Source: Candidatus Yanofskybacteria bacterium CG10_big_fil_rev_8_21_14_0_10_46_23 (GTDB lineage Bacteria; Patescibacteriota; Minisyncoccia; 2-02-FULL-40-12; IGHO2-12-FULL-4). From it: a stretch of DNA of 38,060 nucleotides. The stretch is taken from assembly GCA_002771135.1 (NCBI GenBank), contig PCXO01000005.1, positions 1 to 38,060 on the forward strand, in the 5' to 3' direction. Made by a program: the position numbers and the translations under genes. Position 1 is the first letter of the stretch; each line of letters begins with the position of its first letter. Shown piece after piece: positions 10,334 to 21,359 of the stretch. The notes below the pieces were generated by a model, which searched no databases, was not told the origin of the DNA, and worked only from the letters and a program-made list of their open reading frames with translations.

Positions 10334-10470
10334 GCCCGATCATTAAATCGAAAAACCGTGTCGGCTGTGGATTGCACGGTCCGACCAGCTCGGTGGGCGG
10401 AATCCATAGACGACACGGAATGAACATTTCTCGCTGGGAAATGGAATGATATTGAGATTAATGATCGGGC
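10334..10470 (+). repeat. Structured dispersed element copy B
   Basis: Outer arms GCCCGATCATTAA 10334-10346 / TTAATGATCGGGC 10458-10470; P2 10356-10373/10401-10418; P3 10426-10442 ATTTCTC-GCT-GGGAAAT; GCACGG bulge. Confidence 0.85.
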
Positions 10471-10500: not shown

Positions 10501-10528
10501 TTGACAATTATATTCAGTATGATATAAT
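10501..10528 (+). promoter_or_regulatory. Strong sigma70-type promoter TTGACA-N16-TATAAT
   Basis: Exact consensus hexamers, 16-bp spacer. Confidence 0.8.
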
Positions 10529-10776
10529 GGCTCCAACGTGTTAGTAACTCTTCGTTGAGCCATCAGGGCTTAACAAAGCCAGTATCGTCTCTGATCTATA
10601 GCAGATTCGTTTCTTTCACTAGATTTAGGTAATTCTCAGGCCCTGGCACATCAAGCCATTTTATTTTTGGCCCGCGAGACTTCTCTAAATATTGGTTTTG
10701 TTAAACTCTGATTTTTCATCAAGTTTAAAAAGCCAAAACTAAAAACCCCATAAATGGGGCTTTTAGTTTTGATATG
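10529..10776 (+). ncRNA. Putative orphan structured small RNA
   Basis: Strong promoter with no ORF; 12-bp long-range stem TTAACAAAGCCA 10570-10581 / TGGTTTTGTTAA 10693-10704; GTCTC 10587-10591 / GAGAC 10676-10680; ends in a terminator hairpin. Confidence 0.55.
10734..10771 (+). terminator. Two-tier hairpin terminator
   Basis: CAAAACTAAAA a CCCCATAAATGGGG c TTTTAGTTTTG. Confidence 0.7.
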
Positions 10777-10915: not shown

Positions 10916-11158
10916 CTATTTATTATAAAAATACTGCATGAGTTCCGATTCGGAGATGTACTTTGAGGCTTGATTGAAAATTGCGCGAAGGGTTCCTTTA
11001 TCTAATTCTTTGTGATCCGGGATGGTGAGCGTTTGGTTTATTCCACTTATCGTTCTTTGGAGTTTAGCATGGCTGCCTTTTTGAGAAATTACGATGAAGT
11101 TAAAAGACTTAAGAATCTTTATCACGTCTTCACCCGATAAGACCCTGAGTCTAGGCAT
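10916..11158 (-). CDS. hicA: HicA-like toxin (YcfA/HicA family)
   Basis: MPRLRVLSGEDVIKILKSFNFIVISQKGSHAKLQR...LTIPDHKELDKGTLRAIFNQA. The track start at 11176 adds 6 aa. Confidence 0.85.
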   Translation of the reverse strand: MPRLRVLSGEDVIKILKSFNFIVISQKGSHAKLQRTISGINQTLTIPDHKELDKGTLRAIFNQASKYISESELMQYFYNK

Positions 11159-11375
11159 TAATCTGAGGAAGTTCAAAGTTCATTAAAACAGAGGGGTTAT
11201 GTTCAAAACCAAAATCAGCGGGGTTTTCTCCTTCTAAGTGCAGTTCAACTGCTTCTTGAATATTTTTGGCTAATTCATCAAGGGTTTTACCTTGAGTAAC
11301 TATCGGTAAATCAGCGCCTTTGGCAGTATAGTATTTGTCGCCTTTTGAGATATGGAATTGGATGATTCTTTTCAT
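11151..11375 (-). CDS. hicB: HicB-like antitoxin
   Basis: FHISKGDKYYTAKGADLPIVTQGKTLDELAKNIQEAVELHLEG; overlaps the toxin gene. Confidence 0.82.
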   Translation of the reverse strand: MKRIIQFHISKGDKYYTAKGADLPIVTQGKTLDELAKNIQEAVELHLEGENPADFGFEHNPSVLMNFELPQINA

Positions 11376-21179: not shown

Positions 21180-21318
21180 GAGACCACCGATTAACCCGAA
21201 AACATTCCAAAACCCAGCGAGTTTTGTTCATTCCGCATCGCCTGCGGATTCCGCCCCCCGGGCCGGTCGGACCTTGCAATCCACAGGCGATACGGTTTCT
21301 TAATTAATCGGCGGCCTC
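21180..21318 (-). repeat. Structured dispersed element copy C
   Basis: Outer arms 21180-21194/21304-21318 (15 bp, two G-U on - strand); core nearly identical to copy A, including AAACCGTATCGCCTGTGGATTGCAAGGTCCG and AAAACTCGCTGGGTTTT. Confidence 0.85.
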
Positions 21319-21359
21319 TTTTTTGTACAATATTTTAATCTTTTTGCTATACTGAGCCC

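Follow-up and report, generated by a model that had tools for sequence, protein, structure and literature searches.

A conserved rod-shaped RNA of Parcubacteria encoded in a Candidatus Yanofskybacteria genome

Several described bacterial RNAs resemble the RNA reported here in outline. The 6S RNA (SsrS, RF00013) is the product of a free-standing gene of about 200 nt and forms a rod with paired ends, a junction in the middle and an apical arm, and two 6S RNAs occur in some bacteria. The bacterial SRP RNA (RF00169) is likewise rod-shaped, and that of E. coli also folds via a transient 5' hairpin. The tmRNA and RNase P RNA share with the new RNA a closing helix formed by the two ends of the molecule.

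The RNA locus was found in a window of 38,060 nt (the whole stretch of DNA analysed), which belongs to a genome of 571 kb in 13 contigs, rated 95% complete, where the RNA is present as a single copy. Its features are as follows.

10501..10528, + strand: sigma70-type promoter TTGACA-N16-TATAAT (12/12 match; promoters are common among relatives)
10535..10563, + strand: 5' leader, the start site being placed from the promoter, about 7 nt downstream of the -10 box
10564..10585, + strand: closing helix P1, 5' strand (22-bp helix with two-sided changes in relatives)
10588..10608 (approximate limits), + strand: hairpin H1, an optional element 5' to the junction (minimum-energy fold)
10634..10642, + strand: apical arm P2/P3, 5' strand (UCUC, A, GGCC), with conserved CAGGC (fold and relatives)
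10644..10658, + strand: apical hairpin UGGC-ACAUCAA-GCCA (matched in three other genomes)
10669..10679, + strand: apical arm P3/P2, 3' strand (GGCC, short bulge, GAGA; fold and relatives)
10689..10710, + strand: closing helix P1, 3' strand, partner of 10564-10585
10734..10771, + strand: terminator hairpin (seen in the window sequence)

A preliminary description, made from the window alone, had proposed an independently transcribed structured RNA of about 240 nt without a plausible ORF, placed between this promoter and this terminator; the promoter, the terminator and the structure were confirmed, and the reading as a separately transcribed RNA is supported. Inspection of the sequence also revealed TG preceding the second promoter hexamer, and no + strand ORF of at least 34 aa touches the locus. 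The + strand at 10529-10776 folds with -79 kcal/mol versus a mean of -48.2 for shuffles (z -7.0, reached by 0 of 200 of them), while the reverse strand folds less well (z -5.4). A second hairpin similar to the terminator is present elsewhere in the same genome. Directly upstream of the RNA, as had been noted, lies 'element B' (10334-10470), a structured dispersed repeat (z -7.2) outside the RNA itself; it also occurs at 1857-1942 and 21203-21320 and at further sites of the genome (L158, L157).

The locus had been considered an orphan, and a check of its conservation in sister genomes had been suggested. Plain DNA comparison with 58 related genomes returned short matches, of which the three in G018, G010 and G025 turned out to be complete RNA copies preceded by promoters, and a pattern search added a fifth sequence, from G014. 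A covariance model built from these four and the window sequence found further members, and a ten-sequence model gave matches in 23 of the 384 genomes of the class. With an E-value limit of 0.5, the latter model detected the RNA in 19 of 41 near relatives, so that the same gene is present in about half of them and the term orphan no longer applies; its detection in only half could reflect divergence or real absence. Carriers also occur in other families of the class, and a collection-wide scan yielded well-scoring copies in Yanofskybacteria, Harrisonbacteria and other Parcubacteria, along with two more copies from genomes of the same order. The members in families f8, f21 and f31 form a shorter subtype with a CCAGC..GGCUG apex and the same inner helix. 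Outside Parcubacteria, the collection-wide pattern scan found no convincing member: the best matches reached at most 26 bits, versus at least 49 for clear members, and are attributed to chance. One Parcubacterial match (L073) scores 23 bits. No convincing member was found in the viral contigs searched. Two loci (L035 and L048) and an apparently broken one (L047) were excluded from the member set. Taken as a conserved RNA gene, the locus leaves very little room for doubt.

In the window, the RNA is preceded by a gene for a TrwB-like coupling protein and followed by a hicA-type toxin gene. In family f3, the surrounding genes are serS, one of ftsQ type and a convergent one for a PMT-type glycosyltransferase, and unrelated genes adjoin it in other families; the serS-ftsQ-RNA arrangement persists in one family, as expected of a vertically inherited gene. 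No conserved same-strand downstream gene was found, the contexts differing between families. In 17 of 26 members, consensus matching placed a promoter 31-40 nt ahead of the helix. Since this spacing is nearly constant while the neighbours differ, the RNA has a free-standing gene, and the segment from 10535 to about 10775 is best read as such a gene, with its own strong sigma70 promoter, and as a member of a new family. A hicA-like gene with the same small upstream partner lies near the RNA both here (10916-11375) and in the distant genome G179 (L045), which is probably a coincidence.

The ends of the RNA pair in the closing helix P1. The 12-bp long-range stem reported earlier is present, being only the inner part of this 22-bp helix. 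Among 24 distinct sequences, 14 of the 22 pairs have changed on both sides and 96% of the cells are paired, and sliding the two strands by one base halves the pairing. The covariation score of 0.503 compares with 0.210 in shuffles, none of 500 of which reached the real value. The prediction of P1 came from the window, at a time when no relative was known, and sequence alone led to the first three relatives, while the later ones were picked with a model containing the helix, so that their pairing is partly built in. Because G-U cells (83) exceed A-C cells (13), the structure is selected on the + strand. Comparison of the members showed that the inner half of P1, AAAGCCAGUA/UAUUGGUUUU, is nearly invariant, with two preferred G-U pairs; the highest conservation thus falls in a double-stranded segment of the RNA.

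Above P1, the junction varies between members and is flanked on either side by optional hairpins, of which the AGAUU-containing H1 is shared by the closest relatives and lacking in others. Two pairings had been proposed for the apical arm. The CTC..GGCC/GGCC..GAG pairing proved correct (10634-10642 with 10669-10679), while GTCTC/GAGAC would need the GAGA already used by this pairing and is disfavoured both by the minimum-energy fold and by the relatives, which prefer UCUC 10634-10637 with GAGA 10676-10679. Almost every member of the main subtype has CAGGC...GGCC and, on the 3' side, a short bulge that mostly ends in UA and is followed by GAAA. Examined by eye as a possible k-turn, the bulge lacks the second G-A pair, and this reading was abandoned. 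The apical hairpin recurs with a nearly identical loop in G018, Harrisonbacteria and G001.

The leader offers an alternative pairing. Its segment GTTGAGCC (10554-10561) is able to pair with 10567-10574, within the 5' strand of P1, and in many members, above all in family f3, a leader segment is complementary to this strand. Pairing between a leader and its own helix exceeded that of swapped leaders (0 of 2000 as good) and of shuffled leaders (0 of 500), although it is weak or absent in several members (G024, G014, G050 and the B subtype). A further leader motif resembles the boxA antitermination element of rRNA, GYTCTTTAANA (PMC5725501): GTTCTTTA-like sequences were detected in 16 of 26 members, versus 0.6 in shuffles, and lie almost equally far from the promoter in each. 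However, the window's own leader has the motif at best in a weak form, and the boxA-like 8-mer is absent from the 16S leader of G007, the one further genome examined. Since that leader lacks it and the 23S leader of the source genome contains one GCTCTTTA, the boxA idea remains a lead. In the 23S leader (L171), a boxA-like GGCTCTTTA was seen some 215 bases ahead of 23S. In G007, the 16S gene aligns as three pieces with inserts between them (L200 6057-9140).

The RNA is a rod-shaped free-standing bacterial RNA and a member of no known family among those tested. Rfam scans of the window and nine relatives, at the gathering score and at a relaxed E-value, returned only chance-level matches at the RNA locus, in agreement with the earlier remark that no tmRNA, SRP or RNase P signature was visible. 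Further Rfam scans, of the rest of the genome, recovered rRNAs, tRNAs, RNase P and tmRNA but no SRP RNA. The tmRNA (RF00023) and RNase P RNA (RF00010) of the source genome lie at G000:C9:25106-25459 and G000:C13:36444-36899, respectively, and no motif common to them and the new RNA was seen; ARAGORN likewise found no tmRNA at the locus. Unlike SRP RNA, the new RNA has neither the GGAA loop nor the AGCAG bulge. Searching the genome with RF00169 at E values as high as 1 gave no match, a scan for the SRP core GGAA/AGCAG motifs was empty, and no Ffh/FtsY-type GTPase motif was found in any frame of the genome stretches scanned, which is the result of a motif scan on a genome that is 95% complete. 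No earlier report of the RNA was found in a limited literature collection, in which absence is no proof.

The likeness to 6S RNA, which the preliminary description had called loose, holds for the overall shape and not for the sequence: RF00013 has no match in the window, whether at the gathering score or with E relaxed to 10, nor at the loci of the relatives, and the apex of the new RNA lacks the GGGAG..CACCCACC motif. The Rfam 6S model found nothing at its cut-off in 142 genomes. A 6S-like model was built from sub-threshold RF00013 matches in five members of the class, and of the 306 class genomes searched with it, 123 have such loci. They include the source genome (G000:C13:59705-59830, L154; a moderate 35 bits) and five other carriers of the new RNA (G017, G023, G028, G050 and G087), where a separate RNA with a GGGAG..CACCCACC-type apex always lies in a different place. 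Because the 6S-like loci are elsewhere in all six genomes, the two RNAs coexist and differ. It is therefore unlikely that the new RNA is a second, highly divergent 6S RNA, that is, an open-promoter mimic binding sigma70-RNA polymerase with the inner helix as template for short product RNAs, even though the paired ends, the junction beside the most conserved helix, the own promoter and the existence of bacteria with two 6S RNAs would suit it. With junctions that differ between members, a hand check for -10-like bases opposite the helix gave no consistent element and failed in members with a 3'-side hairpin.

A trans-acting regulatory RNA whose loops pair with messages is similarly doubtful, if marginally less so. 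A free-standing gene with a terminator would be expected of it, and ACAUCAA, CAACAAC and like loop segments are conserved within subgroups, but the loops vary between subgroups, while the double-stranded core is common to all. It is improbable that the RNA acts in cis, as leader or attenuator for a gene downstream: the leader/helix pairing does resemble a two-state switch, and in G018 a same-strand ATG with a ribosome-site-like GGAGG lies downstream, but the downstream genes vary and are often convergent, and in the window, G010 and G014 a terminator directly follows the RNA. With element B adjoining it, the locus might be suspected of being an inverted repeat, a miniature transposon or a similar DNA element rather than an RNA gene; its single copy in the source genome, the strong G-U versus A-C asymmetry and the promoters at a near-fixed distance make this extremely improbable.

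The pattern of conservation suggests another role, as a constitutive RNA bound by protein, to which we assign an evenly balanced likelihood, since conservation peaks in a double-stranded segment, as is usual for protein-bound RNAs. In such a scheme, the leader would first pair with the 5' strand of P1 as a transient hairpin, from which the 3' strand of P1 would then displace it to form the rod; the conserved inner helix and the bulge would provide a putative protein-binding site, and the RNA would act within a constitutive ribonucleoprotein rather than by pairing with messages. More tentatively, one could hypothesise that the RNA is a housekeeping ribonucleoprotein component which only Parcubacteria have and which is as fundamental to them as 6S or SRP RNA is elsewhere, with an obligatory leader-to-rod exchange and a partner protein not yet linked to RNA.

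The separate 6S-like loci suggest that the 6S-like RNA of this group has been overlooked by the standard model. Parcubacteria genomes are very small, so that an RNA gene kept across families with a strong promoter is probably needed, and this RNA gives access, in a concrete and testable form, to the RNA biology of bacteria that are for the most part uncultivated.
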